Under the pieces are notes generated by a model, which saw only the letters and a list, made by a program, of their open reading frames with translations, searched no databases and had not been told where the DNA came from. Shown here piece after piece: positions 1 through 7,693 of a stretch of 11,315 nt of DNA. A program made the position numbers and the translations under genes. The first letter of the stretch is position 1; every line of letters begins with the position of its first letter. This DNA comes from Bacteroidales bacterium (GTDB lineage: Bacteria > Bacteroidota > Bacteroidia > Bacteroidales > WCHB1-69), in NCBI GenBank assembly GCA_017527945.1, contig JAFXPL010000126.1, positions 1 to 11,315 of the forward strand. The letters run 5' to 3'.

Positions 1-13
1 ACGATTTAAATTG

Positions 14-21
14 TATTTTTG
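14..21 (+). promoter_or_regulatory. Possible rightward -7 element
   Basis: TATTTTTG fits the TAnnTTTG -7 consensus of Bacteroidota. Its -33 partner would lie at or beyond the left edge and cannot be checked. If it is active, the transcript would run through the hairpin at 69-98 before reaching the first gene. In this AT-rich stretch it may be a chance match. Confidence 0.3.
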
Positions 22-41
22 CCATCTCTTTAGTTATGGTG

Positions 42-71
42 CAAAGATACAAAAATCTTTGACACGGCAAA
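42..71 (-). promoter_or_regulatory. Leftward Bacteroidota-type promoter
   Basis: Read on the minus strand, a TATCTTTG box (plus-strand 42-49) is preceded, after an 18-base spacer, by TTTG (plus-strand 68-71). This fits the Bacteroidota sigma-70 pattern of a -33 TTTG and a -7 TAnnTTTG. Transcription would begin near position 36 and run out of the left edge, so the gene it serves is not in the window. The -33 element touches the base of the hairpin at 69-98. Confidence 0.6.
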
Positions 72-101
72 GCCCTAACCCGCCAATGTTAGGGCTTTTT
101 T
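69..101 (+). terminator. Rho-independent terminator hairpin
   Basis: AAAGCCCTAAC (69-79) pairs perfectly with GTTAGGGCTTT (88-98) around an 8-base loop. Six T residues (96-101) overlap the 3' foot. This is a textbook intrinsic terminator for rightward transcription. It sits immediately before the first open frame, so it is either the terminator of a former upstream gene or an attenuator in the leader of the operon. Confidence 0.75.
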
Positions 102-576
102 GCAAAAAAAAGAGGGCGCGCCACTTTTGACACACCCTCTTGATGGCGAAGTGGAATGGAAGTCTCCTGCGAGTATGCAGTTTATGCTTATGCTTCCGAA
201 AGAGAATTCGGATGAGCTAATTAAATACTGGTCTTACTTTATAGAAACAAAAGTTGACGGCAATGACAGAACTCTGGCCATCGACTTTAAGACGGGCGAA
301 CCGGGTACCTATTCGGGAACATATGACTTTGAGAAACAAACATGGTCAACACAGGCAATTGATACCATCGAGTTGAGAATCTACAATGACACTATCTTGG
401 AGTCGTTGTGGCGAGGGGAGTCAGCGACCCTGAAACTCAATGAGTATAAATATACTCGCAAGAAACAATACGTCGATGCTGCATTGGATGCCGTCTTGGT
501 TAAGGAAGGAAGTACAGAGAAACGTAACATCAAGGTAGTTATTGAGAATCGCCTAGAGTTTTATAAAGCGAAGTAA
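100..576 (+). CDS. Unrecognised 158-residue protein, 5' end uncertain
   Basis: I do not recognise this family. The protein appears cytoplasmic: no signal peptide, membrane segment or nucleotide-binding motif is visible. Alternating hydrophobic and polar residues and many aromatics (around WSYFIETKVDG, YSGTYDF and IELRIYND) suggest a beta-rich fold. The start is doubtful. The longest frame begins with TTG at 100, inside the T-tract of the terminator. Other in-frame options are TTG at 127 and ATG at 175, none with a clear ribosome binding site, and the frame is open back only to a stop at 76-78. The gene may therefore have lost its original 5' end. Its TAA at 574-576 is one base from the ATG of the LRR gene, so the two are probably translationally coupled and may act together. 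Confidence 0.6.
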   Translation: MQKKEGAPLLTHPLDGEVEWKSPASMQFMLMLPKENSDELIKYWSYFIETKVDGNDRTLAIDFKTGEPGTYSGTYDFEKQTWSTQAIDTIELRIYNDTILESLWRGESATLKLNEYKYTRKKQYVDAALDAVLVKEGSTEKRNIKVVIENRLEFYKAK

Positions 577-577
577 A

Positions 578-1330
578 ATGGAGAAGGGTTATCAAGTAGT
601 TGATGGGGTAGGATATATCCCCGAAGGAACGGAGGAAGTGGTAAACTATGCTTTTGAGCATAGCGAAGAATTGCGGGAAATTGACATCCCCGATTCGGTG
701 AAAAATATTGGAATGGCTGCATTTGTGAAGTGTAAAAAACTAACGAGGGTAACATTTCCCAATTCGTTAAAAGAAATAGGAATGATTGCTTTTTCAGGAT
801 GTAAGAGTCTGAGGGAGATAAGGCTTCCAAATTCGCTTACATCCATAGGGAGCGCGGCTTTTAACGGCTGTACGAAGTTAGAACGTGTGAATCTTCCCAA
901 TTCCCTAAAGGAGATTATGGCCTATGCTTTTGAAAACTGCAAGACACTGACAGAAATAGAGATACCCAATTCTCTGTCGAGAATCGAAAATAAGATGTTC
1001 GCCAACTGCGTGAAGTTGACAAATGTAATTATTCCTGAATCGGTCATTGAGGTTGGTTGCTCAGCCTTTGAGAGTTGTATATCATTGACAGAAATTATTC
1101 TTCCGCAATCACTCACCACGATCGCTCCCGAAGCCTTTAAAGGGTGTGTGGGATTGAAAAAGGTGGTGCTTCCTAAGTCGATTCAAAGAATCGAAGATTT
1201 TGCCTTTATGGGTTGCACCGGATTGTCAGAAGTTGTTTTTCCAGATAACGAAGTTCACGTCTCGCAATTCGCATTTTTGAACTGCAAAGCATTTCTAATT
1301 CCAAAATCAGCTAAAGTTGTGGTATGGTAG
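578..1330 (+). CDS. Cytoplasmic BspA-like leucine-rich repeat protein
   Basis: This 250-residue protein consists almost wholly of BspA/Treponema-type leucine-rich repeats (LRR_5 type). The unit is 23 residues, roughly L-x-x-I-x-(I/L)-P-x-S-(L/V)-x-x-I-x-x-x-A-F-x-x-C. The conserved prolines fall at 38, 61, 84, 107, 130, 153, 176, 199 and 222, exactly 23 apart, giving nine units; the last is degenerate. Such solenoids generally bind proteins. Known BspA proteins are usually exported, but this one starts MEKGYQVVDGVGY with no signal peptide, anchor or sorting domain, so it probably works in the cytoplasm. It starts one base after the upstream stop and lies 25 bases before the ATPase gene. I infer a recognition or scaffold role for the ATPase operon. 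The family is clear; the partner is unknown. Confidence 0.92.
   Translation: MEKGYQVVDGVGYIPEGTEEVVNYAFEHSEELREIDIPDSVKNIGMAAFVKCKKLTRVTFPNSLKEIGMIAFSGCKSLREIRLPNSLTSIGSAAFNGCTKLERVNLPNSLKEIMAYAFENCKTLTEIEIPNSLSRIENKMFANCVKLTNVIIPESVIEVGCSAFESCISLTEIILPQSLTTIAPEAFKGCVGLKKVVLPKSIQRIEDFAFMGCTGLSEVVFPDNEVHVSQFAFLNCKAFLIPKSAKVVVW
647..1267 (+). repeat. 69-bp coding tandem repeats of the LRR gene
   Basis: The nine 23-residue protein units correspond to a 69-base period in the DNA. Short blocks such as CCCAATTC, coding for P-N-S, recur near 758, 896 and 965, but the copies have diverged between these blocks. Copy number could change by recombination, though this divergence suggests no recent expansion. 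Confidence 0.7.
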
Positions 1331-1355
1331 TAATTTTAAGTTAAGTTGATGTATT

Positions 1356-2552
1356 ATGGAGACGGAAAAGTATAAGATAGGATATGTTAGATGTATGCTC
1401 TTTGCAGATTTTGGTATCGAACCGGTTCGGGCCTTGCAGTTTATAAACGACATGGAGAAACGCCCTGACAAGGTGGCGCGATACAAAGAACTTGTGGTGA
1501 AAAGCCTCTCGCTCCAATATGAGGGATTAAAAGATTGGTCGAAGGATAAACTTGCCGAACTTGCCAAGCAACGGGCTAAGGCGTGGCGCAAACAGATGGG
1601 CGACATTGCCATGCCCGAATATTTGGCCATGAGCAAACGATGGAATATTCCGCTCGACAGATTTATAGACATTAAACTGACTCCCGAGTTCATTAAGAAA
1701 ATGCTCGATTGCTACATCATCGGACAAGAAGATTATAAAATCATGCTTTCCGTGTCGTTCTATAGTTATCTTCTGCAGAAACGAAGTCGTTCTATCCTTC
1801 CGAAAAGCAATTTGCTGGTGTGTGGTCCGAGTGGTTCTGGTAAGACTTATGGAATGCATATTCTGAGCAATCTGTTTCAAGTTCCATTTGTCATCATACA
1901 CTGCAATTCTATTGTGCAGGAAGGCATAGAGGGCTCAAAGATCACAGATGGCCTCACCTCGTTGCTGTTGAAGGGCTGGGAGAAAGAAGATATCAAACAC
2001 GCGGTGGTGTGCTTCGACGAGTTTGACAAACTATTCGAAAAAAGAAAATTTGGAATAGACTCAGGTGAGTATAATTCCAGAATCGTAAATGAAATGCTGA
2101 ATATTATTGACGACAAGGGGGAGGTGGAATTTCAGACATCGTATGAGAGGAGGAGCGACCGTGTGAAACTACCCACGAGTAAAATGATGTTCGTTTTCAC
2201 GGGTGTGTTTGACGGATTGCGAAAAAAAGATTCTGAGAAGGTATATCGAAAAGTGATGGGGAAAATTACCCGCAGCATCTCTCCGAAAACAGAAATCGAC
2301 GAATGCTACAAGGCGTTCCGTGAGGACAAGGCCAAACAATCCCTCCATAGCCATCTGATGGAGAAAGTGGATGCGCTCTACGCATGTTTCAAAAACGGAG
2401 AAAATCCGAAAAACAAACATATAGCCCAATTGGCATTAACCTATCTTTTCAACCAAAACGACCTCATCCATGACAACCTCGAAGGTGTCGGGTTGGTTGA
2501 CGACGTGACGGTGATTGACCATGCGTTGAAAATCATAAAAGGTTGTATATGA
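1356..2552 (+). CDS. ClpX-like AAA+ ATPase with C-terminal DUF1232-like domain
   Basis: This 398-residue protein has a helical N-terminal part (about 1-107) instead of the ClpX zinc-binding domain. A ClpX-like AAA+ core follows: LTPEFIKKMLDCYIIGQ at 108-124, Walker A GPSGSGKT at 157-164, a pore-1-like loop GIEG at 190-193 (ClpX has GYVG), Walker B VVCFDE at 217-222 followed by FDK, and a sensor-1 region near 273-288. After about residue 295 the ClpX features stop: no E-F-I-G-R arginine finger, no IGF loop and no sensor-2 G-A-R. Instead, residues about 335-395 match the DUF1232 (YkvA-like) pattern, with NDLIHD at 368-373 and G-L-V-D-D near 379-383, like the family's P-x-D-L-I-P-D and G-x-x-D-D. 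It lies 25 bases after the LRR gene and overlaps the next gene by ATGA. It probably binds ATP, but may need a partner for hydrolysis. The paralog at 4586-5920 is an obvious candidate. Confidence 0.88.
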   Translation: METEKYKIGYVRCMLFADFGIEPVRALQFINDMEKRPDKVARYKELVVKSLSLQYEGLKDWSKDKLAELAKQRAKAWRKQMGDIAMPEYLAMSKRWNIPLDRFIDIKLTPEFIKKMLDCYIIGQEDYKIMLSVSFYSYLLQKRSRSILPKSNLLVCGPSGSGKTYGMHILSNLFQVPFVIIHCNSIVQEGIEGSKITDGLTSLLLKGWEKEDIKHAVVCFDEFDKLFEKRKFGIDSGEYNSRIVNEMLNIIDDKGEVEFQTSYERRSDRVKLPTSKMMFVFTGVFDGLRKKDSEKVYRKVMGKITRSISPKTEIDECYKAFREDKAKQSLHSHLMEKVDALYACFKNGENPKNKHIAQLALTYLFNQNDLIHDNLEGVGLVDDVTVIDHALKIIKGCI

Positions 2553-4255
2553 GAGAATTATATAATAAATTCAAGTCACTTATGAGCAAAAATTCCGCCA
2601 TCCTCATCACCCACGGCACCGACACTCTCGCCTGGACGCACGCCGCCGTGCGCTATGCCGTGAAACACAACAAGGTCAACATCGCCATTACCGGCAGCCA
2701 GATCCCCATGCCCGACGGCGTGGGCGACTTCTCCGACGCCTACGCCAACATCGGCAACAGCATCCGGTTCCTCACCCAATTCAAGCCGCCGCATATCTTC
2801 ACCGTCTTCAACAACGGTCAGAACGCCTTCTCCGACTCGCTCTACAAAATCAACCGCTGGAACAACCAGGCGTTCGAGGGCGACCTCATCGGCACCATGC
2901 AGTGGGACGAGGTGAAGTTCCACGACGACGAGGTGGTGGAAACACTGGAGACACCCGAATCCCTGGACACCCTCTATGTGGTGACCACCGGCGGCACCAT
3001 CGAATCCACCTTCAACGGGGAGGGTGTGCTCTCGCCCCAGCAGAACCGGCTCTCCGAATTCATCAAGTCGAAGTTCGACAACCCCGACACCCGCATCATC
3101 TATGTGCCCGCCTGCACCATCGACTCGTCCGACCTCACCTTCGAGAAGATGCGGGCGGTCATTAACAAAGTGAAAGAGTGCTTCGACAATATGTCCCTGT
3201 CTGATGCCGAAGTGGACCTGGACTTCGACGAGAACGTCCGCATCCTCTACACCGATCCGTTCAAGACGGAGGCGCAGTACCGCAAGGAGATGGAAGGAGC
3301 CTCGGCGGTCATCCTCGCTGGCTACGGTGGCGGCAACATCAACATCGACGACGGTTCGGGATTCTCGCCGCTACAACTGATCCGGGAGAAAAGCAAGGAG
3401 ATGCCCATCGTGCTCACCTCGCAAGTGGCCCTCGGCCCAGCCGACTTCATCTACGAGAACGCCTGGGAGGCCGTCAAAGCGGGTGCCATCTCCGGCGTGG
3501 ACCTCTCCATCCCCGAGATCCAGATCCGCCTCGCCTACCTGATGGGCCACCGCCGGCAGATTGAATCCTACTGTCAAACGCACGGCAAAACCTTCATGGA
3601 GGTGGTGGAGTGGCTGTTCATGTCGGGCATGAAGTTCCGCACCCGCCGCAGCAGAAGGAAGTACGAGGAGTTAAGGGGCGTTGCCTTCGACAAGAGGGAT
3701 TTGCTGATTGACTACACGATGGAGGAGAGTCTTCACGTCTTCCAAGAGTTTACAGAAGCACTTGCGGACAACGAGATGGATGTTGAGAAAATCCTTGAAC
3801 TCGCTACAGAGTATTATGACAAAGGTCACAAAGAGAAAGGTTTTGCCTTGTATAAGAAAGCAGCCGAATTGGGCTCTGCTCAAGCCCAGCATTTTGTTGC
3901 GAATTGCTATCGATTCGGATTGGCGACAACAAAAGATGAGAATGAGGCTGTCCGTTGGTACCGGAAGGCGGCTGACCAAGATTATCTCCAGTCAATCTAT
4001 GCTCTTGCAGAATTTCACATGTGGGGAAGTTACGGTGTGGAAAAAAGCACTGAGAAGGCCGTGCAACTATGGCATAAAGCGGCCGAGACGGGAGACGTAA
4101 TAGCACAGCACAGTCTCGGCAACCTGTATCTTGAGGGACTTTATGTCGAACAAAACCGCGAAGAAGCCATCAAATGGTATCGAAAGGCGGCACAACAGGG
4201 ATACAAACCTTCAAGAAAAAAACTGCTTGCCCTTGGAGTTGAAGAGGGTATTTAA
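2549..4255 (+). CDS. Asparaginase-like (motif order rearranged) / Sel1-repeat fusion
   Basis: The start is the ATG at 2549, overlapping the ATPase stop (ATGA), giving 568 residues. Residues 1-130 match the middle of a bacterial type I/II asparaginase: THGTDT at 21-26, TGSQIP at 48-53, and K100 where the catalytic lysine is expected. Residues 140-215 match what is normally the start: TTGGTI at 146-151 and DSSD at 192-195. Residues about 229-332 match the C-terminal domain (LAGYGGGN at 256-263). All expected active-site motifs are present once each, but out of order, as in a circular permutation of the N-terminal domain. After a charged linker, about four Sel1 repeats (about 415-560) follow, with signatures such as A-x-x-W-Y-R-K-A-A; these usually scaffold proteins. 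No signal peptide is visible, so the protein is probably cytoplasmic. L-asparagine hydrolysis is the family reaction; activity here is inferred. The asparaginase part is GC-rich compared with both flanks. Confidence 0.85.
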   Translation: MRELYNKFKSLMSKNSAILITHGTDTLAWTHAAVRYAVKHNKVNIAITGSQIPMPDGVGDFSDAYANIGNSIRFLTQFKPPHIFTVFNNGQNAFSDSLYKINRWNNQAFEGDLIGTMQWDEVKFHDDEVVETLETPESLDTLYVVTTGGTIESTFNGEGVLSPQQNRLSEFIKSKFDNPDTRIIYVPACTIDSSDLTFEKMRAVINKVKECFDNMSLSDAEVDLDFDENVRILYTDPFKTEAQYRKEMEGASAVILAGYGGGNINIDDGSGFSPLQLIREKSKEMPIVLTSQVALGPADFIYENAWEAVKAGAISGVDLSIPEIQIRLAYLMGHRRQIESYCQTHGKTFMEVVEWLFMSGMKFRTRRSRRKYEELRGVAFDKRDLLIDYTMEESLHVFQEFTEALADNEMDVEKILELATEYYDKGHKEKGFALYKKAAELGSAQAQHFVANCYRFGLATTKDENEAVRWYRKAADQDYLQSIYALAEFHMWGSYGVEKSTEKAVQLWHKAAETGDVIAQHSLGNLYLEGLYVEQNREEAIKWYRKAAQQGYKPSRKKLLALGVEEGI

Positions 4256-4476
4256 CAACACGCCTGATTTCGGTCATGCTCCACCGCGAAAACCTCAAAT
4301 TCAAGGAGGAATGGATGAGTTGCTCATGAGATAAGTTCAGTATTATCCACTGTTTCATTCGCGGAACTTTTAGCACTCTCAGAGCAACGTGTTCAGAAGG
4401 CACGACACAAAGCAGCCAAGTACGAAATCCTCCCCCACCCCCTCAATTCATACAATAATCTGACACATTGGCACAT
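4256..4476. other. Intergenic stretch without a supported gene
   Basis: No convincing gene lies here. A short open stretch in the frame of 4258-4329 (R-L-I-S-V-M-L-H-R-E-N-L-K-F-K-E-E-W) reads like protein and ends at TGA 4327-4329, so it could be the tail of a decayed gene, but it is too short to assign. A CACATTGGCACAT motif with a short internal repeat lies near 4464-4476. A purine-rich AAGGAGG at 4303-4309 precedes only a seven-codon frame. Confidence 0.5.
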
Positions 4477-4512
4477 ATCGCCCTCAAAAGAGTGGCGATT
4501 GTTATCTTTTAT
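4477..4512 (+). terminator. Probable terminator of the first operon
   Basis: ATCGCCCTC (4477-4485) pairs with GAG-T-GGCGAT (4490-4499) around an AAAA loop, with one bulged T at 4493. A T-rich but interrupted stretch (TGTTATCTTTTATT) follows. The nine-pair stem fits an intrinsic terminator that separates the asparaginase-Sel1 operon from the next promoter. The imperfect T-tract lowers the confidence. Confidence 0.55.
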
Positions 4513-4514
4513 TC

Positions 4515-4522
4515 TATTTTTG
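4515..4522 (+). promoter_or_regulatory. Bacteroidota -7 promoter element for the second ATPase operon
   Basis: TATTTTTG followed by C matches the TAnnTTTG -7 box. The only nearby TTG (4499-4501) is too close to be an ideal -33 element and lies in the terminator foot. Transcription would start near 4528-4530, which supports the ATG at 4586 rather than any earlier start codon, leaving a leader of roughly 55 bases. Confidence 0.55.
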
Positions 4523-4585
4523 CAGCATTCCGTCCAGTTCAACGGCTGGCAGGCATCAACAATTATCACCATTAAAATCGAAAAA

Positions 4586-5920
4586 ATGAGAATGACCAAC
4601 CAAAAACGCAAGGAAAGCGCTGCAGACACGCTCTTCATCGACGTGATGTGCCCTGTCAAGACAGCTACTTCCTATTTGCGGTGCATCAATCAGAGCGAAA
4701 AGGCCGCAGACCTGATCCGAAAGGAATTCCAAAGCACAAGGATTCCAACCACCCGACAACAGCTGATGCTTTTGTCGAAAGAAGAGCGGGAATCCATCAT
4801 CATGAAACATGTGGATGAATGGCAGACAGAAATCGGACGCCCCTCCATCGCGAGTTTGGTGAAACTCTGCGATGCATGGGGCTGCTCCATCCAAACCTTC
4901 TATGACAAGCCCCTTACCCCTGTGCAAATCAAGAAAATCTTGCAGATGTATATCGTCGGACAGGACAAATATTGCGAACAACTCGCATTGGCCTTCTACC
5001 TGTACAACGACAGACTCAAGATGGATGACTACGAAAGTCGCAACGCGATGCGAGACAGTCTCTTCGTACTGGGACCGAGCGGAAGCGGGAAAACATACGC
5101 GATTCAGACACTCTGCCGGCTCTTCAACGCCCCCATGGTGCTCATACACTGCAATTCTTTGGTTCCGGAAGGAATCGTAGGGGTGAGCGTCAGCAACGTG
5201 TTCACGCAGTTCTACGAGAGCAACGGACAAGATATGGAAATGCTGAAACAGGCAGTCGTTGTCTTCGACGAGTTCGACAAGCCTCTTTTCAACAGAGAAA
5301 ACAACGGGCGCATCATGAGCGAGACGCTGAATATCCTCGACGACAGAGGAGAGGTGATGTTCGACGAAAAATTCGCCACGTCAGGAAATGTCAAAAAAAT
5401 CACAGTGCCCACAAATAAGATGCTCTTCATCTTCACCGGGGTGTGCGAAGGCTTGGAGGAAGTCACCCGCCGCAGACTGAACCTGGGCGGTCTGGGATAC
5501 GCTTCCTCAGAGGCAAAGGCCGCCGGAGCCGACTGGATTGAACAGGTGACCCACAGCGACCTGATAGACCTCGGCTTCATGTCTGAAGTCATCGGCCGCG
5601 TCCAGACCCTCACCCACACGGTCAACCTCACCGAAGATGAACTTATTGCCGCCTTGGACTCAGAATTGTCATCACCGCTGATTCCCTTTAAGCAGAAACT
5701 GGCGAAACACGGAATCCGGCTGGAAGTGTCAAACAGCGGGAAAAAGGCCATCGCCGCCGTGTCGCGCAAAAAACAACTTGGCGTGCGCGGCATGAAAAGC
5801 GTGCTTTACGACATTCTCCGCCATGAGTTGTCGCATCTTCTCTCCGAGGAATGTGAACATGAACGGATTCTGAGCATCAACAAAACGTTCGTCTCCAAAA
5901 CATTGAACATGTCTTTATAA
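4586..5920 (+). CDS. ClpX-like AAA+ ATPase without zinc-binding domain
   Basis: The ATG at 4586 follows the A-rich tract ATCGAAAAA and lies downstream of the promoter, giving 444 residues; the frame extends upstream to TTG 4499, but that precedes the expected transcript start. The N-terminal region (1-110) is helical and resembles that of the ATPase at 1356-2552, not the ClpX zinc finger. The core has MYIVGQ at 121-126, Walker A GPSGSGKT at 163-170, Walker B VVVFDE at 224-229, a GIVG pore-loop equivalent at 196-199, a probable arginine finger R338 in SEVIGR, and a sensor-2-like R401 in LGVRGMKS. It is therefore a complete ATPase. At the ClpP-docking IGF loop position the sequence reads GGLGY (301-305), which argues against ClpP partnership. 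The two downstream genes follow at 37 and 32 bases and are probably co-transcribed. Likely role: ATP-driven protein remodelling in the cytoplasm; substrate unknown. Confidence 0.9.
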   Translation: MRMTNQKRKESAADTLFIDVMCPVKTATSYLRCINQSEKAADLIRKEFQSTRIPTTRQQLMLLSKEERESIIMKHVDEWQTEIGRPSIASLVKLCDAWGCSIQTFYDKPLTPVQIKKILQMYIVGQDKYCEQLALAFYLYNDRLKMDDYESRNAMRDSLFVLGPSGSGKTYAIQTLCRLFNAPMVLIHCNSLVPEGIVGVSVSNVFTQFYESNGQDMEMLKQAVVVFDEFDKPLFNRENNGRIMSETLNILDDRGEVMFDEKFATSGNVKKITVPTNKMLFIFTGVCEGLEEVTRRRLNLGGLGYASSEAKAAGADWIEQVTHSDLIDLGFMSEVIGRVQTLTHTVNLTEDELIAALDSELSSPLIPFKQKLAKHGIRLEVSNSGKKAIAAVSRKKQLGVRGMKSVLYDILRHELSHLLSEECEHERILSINKTFVSKTLNMSL

Positions 5921-5957
5921 ATTCACTGAAATTCAAAACACTTAAAATCAATTAAAT

Positions 5958-6527
5958 ATGGAAAAAACATATCTTTTCTCGTTCTTGCATTTTGTAAATA
6001 AAATGCGCGAATATCCCGATAAAAAGAATATCATTGAGGAATACGAGAACTATTACGGCCCCATGCCTGCAGACTTCAGGGAAACCGACATTTACAAAAA
6101 ATACGTGAGCAAATTCACTCTTCCGGAAGGCTTCAGGCTCATCACACCCGATGAACTGGCGCTCGATTTCGACTGGGAACTACTCGAACAACTGATCGCA
6201 GCCTCTCTTTCTTCCGACTACTGGTATGAATTGTCCGAGGACACCACTTCGTACCAACTCAATGTCTCAGTCGCACACAACGGGGTAAAGGTTGTAAAGA
6301 AAATCAAGGAACTATGGGCTTTCCAAATTCTGAAGCTTTACAAAATCTACATTGAAGAGCAGATTAAACTCTTCACCTTGATGGCAGAAGATGACGAAGA
6401 GTACGAAGCCATCGCTGCAGAGCAGAAGACCAGAATCAAAAAATATAACCTCAAAACCTCCGGCCTGAAAAACAGCAACAACTTTTTCAACGAGCTTAAC
6501 CAAAAATTAGAAACAATCGCAAACTAA
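5958..6527 (+). CDS. Unrecognised 189-residue, mostly helical cytoplasmic protein
   Basis: I do not recognise a family. The protein is charged and seems mainly alpha-helical, with no signal peptide, membrane segment or catalytic motif that I can see. Residues about 1-55 are rich in aromatic and charged residues (HFVNKMREYPDKKNIIEEY). The C-terminal half (about 115-189) is strongly charged and could form coiled helices (LWAFQILKLYKIYIEEQIK, then DDEEYEAIAAEQKTRIKKY). The start is the ATG at 5958 after an A-rich leader, 37 bases behind the ATPase stop, and the next gene begins 32 bases after its end. The position suggests an adaptor, substrate or regulator of the ATPase, but that is inference from context alone. 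Confidence 0.8.
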   Translation: MEKTYLFSFLHFVNKMREYPDKKNIIEEYENYYGPMPADFRETDIYKKYVSKFTLPEGFRLITPDELALDFDWELLEQLIAASLSSDYWYELSEDTTSYQLNVSVAHNGVKVVKKIKELWAFQILKLYKIYIEEQIKLFTLMAEDDEEYEAIAAEQKTRIKKYNLKTSGLKNSNNFFNELNQKLETIAN

Positions 6528-6559
6528 ATTACAATCTGTATTCACAAAAACAAAAAATC

Positions 6560-7693
6560 ATGGAAGAAGAACTCCAAAAAGAAGAAATTGAAACCTCTGA
6601 TGTGGCCAACACCTCAACGGAAAAATCCCAACCTGAAGGAGAAGACTCCGCAAGCACATCGCAGAAATCCAGCGGCAAAACATTCCTCTATGTCTTAAAA
6701 GTGTTGCTGTTTTGGGCGATATTCTTGTCTGTCGGCACCGGGTTGGTCATGGGTGTCTGCCGACTCGTCCGGCGCCACACCGTGAAATGGAAACAATCGC
6801 TGAGCACCACCACGGAAATCGTCCGCTATGACAACAAAGACTACCAGCTGCGACGCACCGACAGCCACAAACGCCTCTCCAAGCGTTATGCGACCGCCGA
6901 CTGGTTGTACGCCTCCCGCGACTCCATCATCTTGCTCGGGAAAAAGGACCTTTACGTGATTTTCTCCCTCAAGAACAACCGATTTTGCGGTGATGAGCGG
7001 CATCGCTATAAAACGGTTCATAGTCCCGACACGACAGGCCTTGTCGCGGTGGTGGACGAGCAGGATACACTCACGTTTCTTTATCTCCACGACAACGGAC
7101 AACAAATGCCCGTTTCCTACCCCGTTGACGATGAAACGTGGTATGACATTCGCTTCAAAGGGGAGTATTGCGTGATTCCGCATCGCAACAAGGGAACATG
7201 CCTCATCAACCGGCAAGGCGACATCCTGCTGGAGGGTTACGAAGACATCTCGATCATAGGCAACGACTATATTCTGGCTACCGATGTGTGGGATAAAGAA
7301 AACCTGTATGACGCGCACACCCTCCGCCCGCTGCTGACCAACAAAACCACCATCTACGTCACAGCGTCCGGTATCTATTTCGACGAAGGCAACATCAGCT
7401 ATCTCATGGACTCGACGGTCACCAACGTGCTGACAAACATGGTTTTGGATGATTACGAAGAATACGTCGAGTGTCCAGGAGTGGCAACCCTCTACGAACC
7501 CGGCGAAGAGATTCCAAGTCCCTACAAAGCCTTCTTCATGAACGGCTTTACCGGCGTGTTCGACCGCGACTACCGCGTCATCATCGAACCGAGATGGGAG
7601 GAAATCCACTATCTTGGCGACGACCACTTCTCCTGCGTGTCGGGCAGCCGAGTCGTCATCATGGACAACAAGGGGAAAATGGTCAAACGATGA
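6560..7693 (+). CDS. Single-pass membrane protein with WG-repeat-like domain
   Basis: This 377-residue protein starts with an acidic, Ser/Thr-rich tail (1-40). One hydrophobic segment (about 42-67, with VLLFWAIFLSVGTG) follows, then a cluster of basic residues (RLVRRHTVKWK at 68-78) and a large domain to the C-terminus. The end resembles WG (KWG) repeats: G-F-T-G-V-F-D-R-D-Y-R-V-I-I-E-P-R-W-E-E-I, then V-I-M-D-N-K-G-K. Another degenerate unit is around CLINRQGDILLEGYEDI. WG repeats are thought to form beta-propeller or solenoid binding surfaces. By the positive-inside rule, the basic cluster after the segment would place the large domain in the cytoplasm, facing the ATPase encoded in the same operon; the alternative periplasmic topology cannot be excluded. 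It could act as a membrane anchor or sensor. Confidence 0.82.
   Translation: MEEELQKEEIETSDVANTSTEKSQPEGEDSASTSQKSSGKTFLYVLKVLLFWAIFLSVGTGLVMGVCRLVRRHTVKWKQSLSTTTEIVRYDNKDYQLRRTDSHKRLSKRYATADWLYASRDSIILLGKKDLYVIFSLKNNRFCGDERHRYKTVHSPDTTGLVAVVDEQDTLTFLYLHDNGQQMPVSYPVDDETWYDIRFKGEYCVIPHRNKGTCLINRQGDILLEGYEDISIIGNDYILATDVWDKENLYDAHTLRPLLTNKTTIYVTASGIYFDEGNISYLMDSTVTNVLTNMVLDDYEEYVECPGVATLYEPGEEIPSPYKAFFMNGFTGVFDRDYRVIIEPRWEEIHYLGDDHFSCVSGSRVVIMDNKGKMVKR

Follow-up and report, generated by a model that had tools for sequence, protein, structure and literature searches.

Swapped N-terminal motifs in a conserved family of asparaginase-like proteins, with a Sel1-containing member in a Bacteroidales contig

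L-asparaginase has been studied extensively and serves as a drug against leukaemia. In its type I (cytosolic) form (TIGR00519 / PF00710 + PF17763), the chain runs through TGGTI, DSS, HGTDT, a lysine and the C-terminal domain, and the catalytic roles of the two threonines, the aspartate, the lysine and the serine are established. Here we analyze a gene from a Bacteroidales bacterium (GenBank assembly GCA_017527945.1, contig JAFXPL010000126.1) whose product resembles the type I enzyme in its motifs and its Thr-Lys-Asp set, but carries the two halves of the N-terminal domain in swapped order. The whole stretch of 11,315 nucleotides is referred to below as the window, and this product as the window protein. 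Archaeal GatD also follows the classical order, with a longer N-terminus in two GatD-like sequences (named by eye). The fold of human ASRGL1 is presumably unrelated to that of the window asparaginase. An engineered circular permutant of ASRGL1, known to us by a title cited in PMC10204187, is a laboratory-made Ntn-hydrolase and a permuted ‘asparaginase’ by name. In the open-licence literature we found no description of NadE, receiver or Sel1 fusions of a permuted asparaginase, nor of a natural permuted asparaginase, for which a prior description elsewhere is possible.

The window protein has 568 residues when read from the ATG at 2549 (translation of 2549-4252), which overlaps the stop of the upstream AAA+ gene; the alternative ATG at 2582 matches the start of the homolog P0002, whose protein opens MSKKSAILITHGTDT. 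Its motifs appear in the order HGTDT (22), TGSQ (48-51), K100, TGGTI (147) and DSSD (192). The original prediction, made from the sequence alone, had proposed this swap, and all its motif positions were exact on the translation. Its end coordinate, 3660, was too short, as the asparaginase part reaches about 3750 and the frame 4255, and it foresaw neither the Sel1 repeats nor the widespread family, both of which are present. PF00710 matched in two stretches (70 bits; cut-off 22.5), the best of them aligning residues 3-124 to profile positions 64-187, that is, to the second part of the profile. PF17763 matched residues 230-339 (38.6 bits; cut-off 34.6) and was followed by three Sel1 stretches. 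Regarding the NCBIfam models, the best asparaginase one for this protein, TIGR00519, gave 75.7 bits, far under its cut-off of 260.5, and the GatD models TIGR02153 and NF003217 gave 51.3 and 58.6 bits against cut-offs of 324 and 310. In each of five permuted proteins examined with NCBIfam, the permuted domain stayed below the cut-off of every asparaginase and GatD model.

With the window protein as query, 7,990 candidates yielded 965 proteins at E ≤ 0.001; with an alignment (A2) built from eight distant relatives, 7,997 candidates yielded 158 at E ≤ 1e-10. The homologs listed are clusters at 90% identity, and our counts cover the best 120 of each search. We called a protein permuted if a TGGTI-like motif follows an HGTDT-like one at a distance of 90-160 residues and the classical pairing is absent, a definition that includes the window protein (HGTDT 22, TGGTI 147). 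From the 240 listed proteins, 219 were permuted, 13 were classical and eight could not be called: the first motif is missing from P0029, P0075, P0119 and P0192 and the TGGTI motif from P0224, the stretch separating the motifs is shortened in P0077, P0114 was matched through Sel1 repeats, and in P0237 HGTDT stands at the classical place with no TGGTI-like match. The A2 search separated proteins P0121-P0226, with at least 287 bits, from the classical P0227-P0240, with at most 129 bits. Homologs of like order, for which the original prediction had proposed a search, exist, and the 219 of 240 that have it confirm that the swap is beyond chance.

The catalytic set, expected to be kept, is present in the window protein (T150, T24, D25, K100 and S193) and in nearly all of the 220 aligned rows (219 permuted proteins plus the window protein). 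Lysine is found at position 100 in 219 rows, threonine at 150 in 219, and serine at 193 and 194 in 220 and 219, respectively; T24 and D25 are present in 220 of 220, but both form part of the selection rule. CGGAI replaces TGGTI in one of the 219 listed permuted proteins. We also observed CGGAI for TGGTI in a Thermoplasmata locus (L005, 5944-7551), where the nucleophile is therefore probably lost. Separate trees of the TGGTI half, the HGTDT half and the C-terminal domain recovered the permuted proteins each time as an exact split, with supports of 0.956, 0.999 and 1.0, and the joined data gave 1.0. The sample held 35 permuted and 16 classical proteins (including two GatD-like and one AnsA-like, named by eye); the classical part is small and includes no sequence picked as type II, and such a split could be favoured by long branches. 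In this sample, the permuted proteins form one clade on which the three segments agree, separate from the type I enzymes, and the archaeal GatD-like sequences do not group with them. In the six permuted rows compared, a helical extension follows the C-terminal domain. A mean-field coupling analysis (Neff 104 for 220 rows) ranked first I20-V208, a pair spanning the two halves; the list is noisy and uncorrected for kinship, and counts for little.

In the structural model, the HGTDT half and the C-terminal domain superpose on the classical enzyme, with model residues from 1 lying on chain residues from 75 of 5ot0_A, and show a predicted fold like that of type I asparaginase. A fragment model without the HGTDT half matched classical chains loosely, at about 5-6 Å rmsd in rows spanning both parts (5.2 Å for the TGGTI half with the C-terminal domain). 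The claim that all motifs meet in one site is thus answered in part: the HGTDT half and the C-terminal domain lie as in the classical enzyme, and the TGGTI half would take its usual place in the fold. As for the proposed permutation within the N-terminal domain, the homologs, their conservation, the separate trees and a confident model support it. The swap may have arisen by duplication followed by loss of the outer halves; no intermediate of that route was seen, long tandem proteins not having been searched for.

Taken together, these proteins probably constitute a monophyletic family of amidohydrolases with the asparaginase fold, which underwent a single circular permutation in the N-terminal domain and kept the catalytic set, the usual fold and amide hydrolysis. 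The permutation would have occurred long ago, in the family ancestor, giving a chain that presents the HGTDT-TGSQ-Lys half, then the TGGTI-DSS half and then the C-terminal domain, and that most likely folds as the usual two-domain asparaginase. Thr150 would act as the nucleophile, activated by the T24-K100-D25 set, and a side-chain amide (of asparagine, glutamine or a relative) would be hydrolysed with release of ammonia. An active amidohydrolase is the best reading because the family retains the catalytic requirements. For the window protein itself we infer activity, substrate and Sel1 role: the Sel1 tail probably binds partner proteins, and this form, lying between two AAA+ genes, may be a protein-bound enzyme.

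The genome-contig scan confirmed 211 relatives, and among the best 80, which were kept, sixteen loci (L001-L016) show the permuted order. By title, they come from Bacteroidales (L001, L002, L003, L004, L006 and L014), a Thermoplasmata archaeon (L005), Acidobacteria (L007 and L009-L013), WOR-3 (L008), Ignavibacteriales (L015) and Cloacimonadota (L016); matches from L017 onward cover mostly the HGTDT half only. L015 and L016 are identical in DNA over 6,835 bases (1-6835 in both), the full length of L016, despite their Ignavibacteriales and Cloacimonadota labels. They represent one sequence in two bins, one of which is probably wrong, so we dropped Cloacimonadota as a further phylum, and the phylum assigned to L015 is also less certain. 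The names of sources in the protein searches add Heimdall-, Thor- and Gerdarchaeota. Searches of species genomes at E ≤ 1e-40 matched the centre genome alone (1/199, 1/299, 1/300 and 1/199, the two sets of 199 overlapping). Permuted proteins are found in many metagenomic clusters but few species genomes.

Regarding fusion partners, extensions of at least 100 residues are N-terminal in 74 of the 219 permuted proteins, C-terminal in 32 and absent from 113. Five listed proteins are fusions with NadE (P0076, P0078, P0080, P0084 and P0090), and SGGKDS as well as the asparaginase motifs is intact in all of them. Within the sampled genus, the best stand-alone NadE, in proteins of 244 residues, is 69-79% identical to each fusion over 241-247 columns. 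At L002 (5245-7158), where a NAD synthase of single-domain type is joined to a permuted asparaginase, the fusion is the sole strong NadE match in that assembly; in genome G002, of uncertain completeness, the fusion is the only strong one (8e-45; next 4.6e-9), and in G003 the only strong match is cut by the contig end. Within the genus of G002, PF02540 matched at 1e-15 in 92 of 101 genomes: 31 have frames of 246-320 residues with at least 143 bits, and 60 score at most 110 bits, 57 of them in frames of at least 495 residues, a length that points to nitrilase-type NadE. The fusion itself gives 152.7 bits in a frame of 640 residues. According to this comparison, it most likely grew from a single-domain NadE. 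The known glutamine-dependent NAD synthase, described in an excerpt of PMC3376133 as working by ammonia transfer, likewise joins NadE to an amidase, but there a nitrilase domain precedes NadE, whereas in these relatives of the window protein the permuted asparaginase follows a NadE of single-domain type.

Two further loci, L014 (4831-12264, a Tannerella assembly) and L015 (5029-12295, an Ignavibacteriales assembly), contain two uncharacterised genes, then the permuted asparaginase, and behind it GatA and a fusion of GatB with AspRS (about 1100 residues). Both GatA genes and the L014 fusion were identified by Pfam, and the L015 fusion by NCBIfam, with both parts over their cut-offs. A separate AspRS over cut-off accompanies the fusion in G010, while G009 has only the fusion over cut-off. 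These genes might form a movable set for tRNA-dependent amidation. A receiver-like N-terminal extension, suggested by eye for L014 and L015, was not supported by hhalign (probability 1.3). The Pfam Response_reg domain was over cut-off in L010 and P0193 and under it in L012; L010 and L012 are the two scanned by Pfam among the Acidobacterial loci (L007, L009-L013), all of which carry an N-terminal extension. A class I GATase domain exceeded its cut-off in P0217 (25.6 vs 22.8 bits), fell below it in P0195, P0204 and P0222, and gave no Pfam match in P0218 and P0226. The proteins P0195-P0209 and P0217 are forms of about 800 residues, several named Asgard archaea; in P0217, P0195 and P0204 the GATase matches lie at the C-terminus. 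Sel1 domains are present in the window protein and in P0001-P0003. The Prevotella relative (L001, 2089-8247) is flanked on one side by a kinase-AAA protein and a small uncharacterised gene, and on the other by a Tubulin_2 protein.

One could argue that the swap is only apparent, the product of a truncated tandem copy, a chimera, an assembly error or a misplaced start codon. The four listed proteins without the first motif might be read that way, but they look like shortened versions of this order, or like versions with a late start. Besides, a first TGGTI upstream, which the original prediction had named as a sign against permutation, is missing: GGT[IL] precedes HGTDT in none of the 219 permuted proteins. 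With this order common to so many clusters and the three segments giving the same clade, we rejected tandem truncation and assembly error, and consider artefacts of this kind extremely improbable. A sensor or regulatory role, in which the asparaginase fold serves to bind an amide or amino acid and turns over slowly or not at all, with the receiver, Sel1 and AAA+ parts relaying the signal, would fit the receiver fusions in Acidobacteria (such as L010) and, in the window, the Sel1 repeats and the neighbouring AAA+ genes. The lack of the nucleophile threonine in L005 also speaks for it. Nonetheless, the near-invariant Lys, Ser and Thr positions over 220 sequences argue for catalysis in most members, and we regard this role as unlikely.

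The permuted domain could instead be chiefly a supplier of ammonia to ATP-dependent amidating enzymes, with the window form working with such a partner or detached from one, and the Bacteroidales fusion, with a complete single-domain NadE in front, serving as an asparagine- or glutamine-using NAD synthase. The motifs kept in all five NadE fusions, the identity of stand-alone NadE over nearly its whole length, the lone fusion in G002 and the adjoining GatA and GatB-AspRS genes in L014 and L015 speak for it. However, 113 of the 219 permuted proteins have no long extension, receiver and Sel1 fusions do not point to ammonia transfer, Pfam shows no amidating-enzyme domain in the ten proteins of the window that were scanned and, in the excerpt of PMC3376133, free ammonia is what most single-domain NAD synthases consume in vivo. 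We find this quite possible, while leaning slightly against it as the general role. For some branches, the ammonia-consuming partners (NadE, the Gat set) suggest that ammonia is a used product, as in GatD. More tentatively still, the amidohydrolase family may be a portable amidase module from one ancient permutation, recruited repeatedly: as ammonia donor to a once ammonia-dependent NAD synthase, alongside GatA and GatB-AspRS, a set whose product would be Asn-tRNA, in fusions with GATase-like domains in Asgard archaea, and under the control of receivers in Acidobacteria.

The features of the window are collected in Table 1. Upstream of the first AAA+ gene lies a BspA-type leucine-rich repeat protein (578-1330). 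The GC content is 0.55-0.61 in the asparaginase part (2551-3750) versus 0.40-0.46 in the preceding genes, and rises also to 0.59 in genes further downstream. A named defence system was rejected, with weak PADLOC matches only (the best, IetA, at 32.9 bits, in the upstream AAA+ protein), as was a phage or plasmid origin, the window domain having no match in 50,697 phage and 72,556 plasmid records. A scan of viral contigs (alignment A1) matched 15 pattern stretches with no relative among them, and the Acidobacterial P0123 gave one plasmid match, covering 28% of the query.

Table 1. Features of the permuted asparaginase gene and its neighbours (window coordinates)
Feature	Position	Strand	Basis or remark
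ClpX-like AAA+ ATPase, below ClpX cut-off	1356..2552	+	stop overlaps ATG 2549
Whole frame, permuted asparaginase + Sel1 repeats	2549..4255	+	568 aa from ATG 2549; alternative ATG 2582
‘Second’ N-domain half, placed first (aa 17-133)	2597..2947	+	PF00710 profile 64-187; alignment to 5ot0_A
HGTDT motif, aa 22-26 (T24, D25)	2612..2626	+	
TGSQ motif, aa 48-51	2690..2701	+	
Lysine K100, catalytic by homology	2846..2848	+	K in 219/220 aligned sequences
‘First’ N-domain half, placed second (~aa 139-214)	2963..3190	+	alignment of homologs' halves to the first halves of classical proteins
TGGTI motif, aa 147-151 (nucleophile T150 by homology)	2987..3001	+	T150 in 219/220
DSSD motif, aa 192-195	3122..3133	+	S193 in 220/220
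Asparaginase C-terminal domain PF17763, aa 230-339	3236..3565	+	Pfam
Helical extension after C-terminal domain	3566..3748	+	in six permuted rows, not in four classical rows of one alignment
Sel1 repeats, aa 418-561	3800..4231	+	Pfam
Second ClpX-like AAA+ ATPase, below ClpX cut-off, downstream	4499..5920	+	

A conserved permuted family would show that the N-terminal domain of asparaginase tolerates new termini, which helps protein engineering, and would show one way in which topology evolves. If the portable-module reading is true, the NadE fusion would represent a new type of NAD synthase that depends on an amide but does without a nitrilase, and the window protein would be the amidase module tethered through Sel1. 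Free ammonia is the rule for single-domain NAD synthases in the excerpt of PMC3376133, which raises the question of an amidase partner, and the NadE fusions offer a way to test if such a synthase can be served by a committed one.
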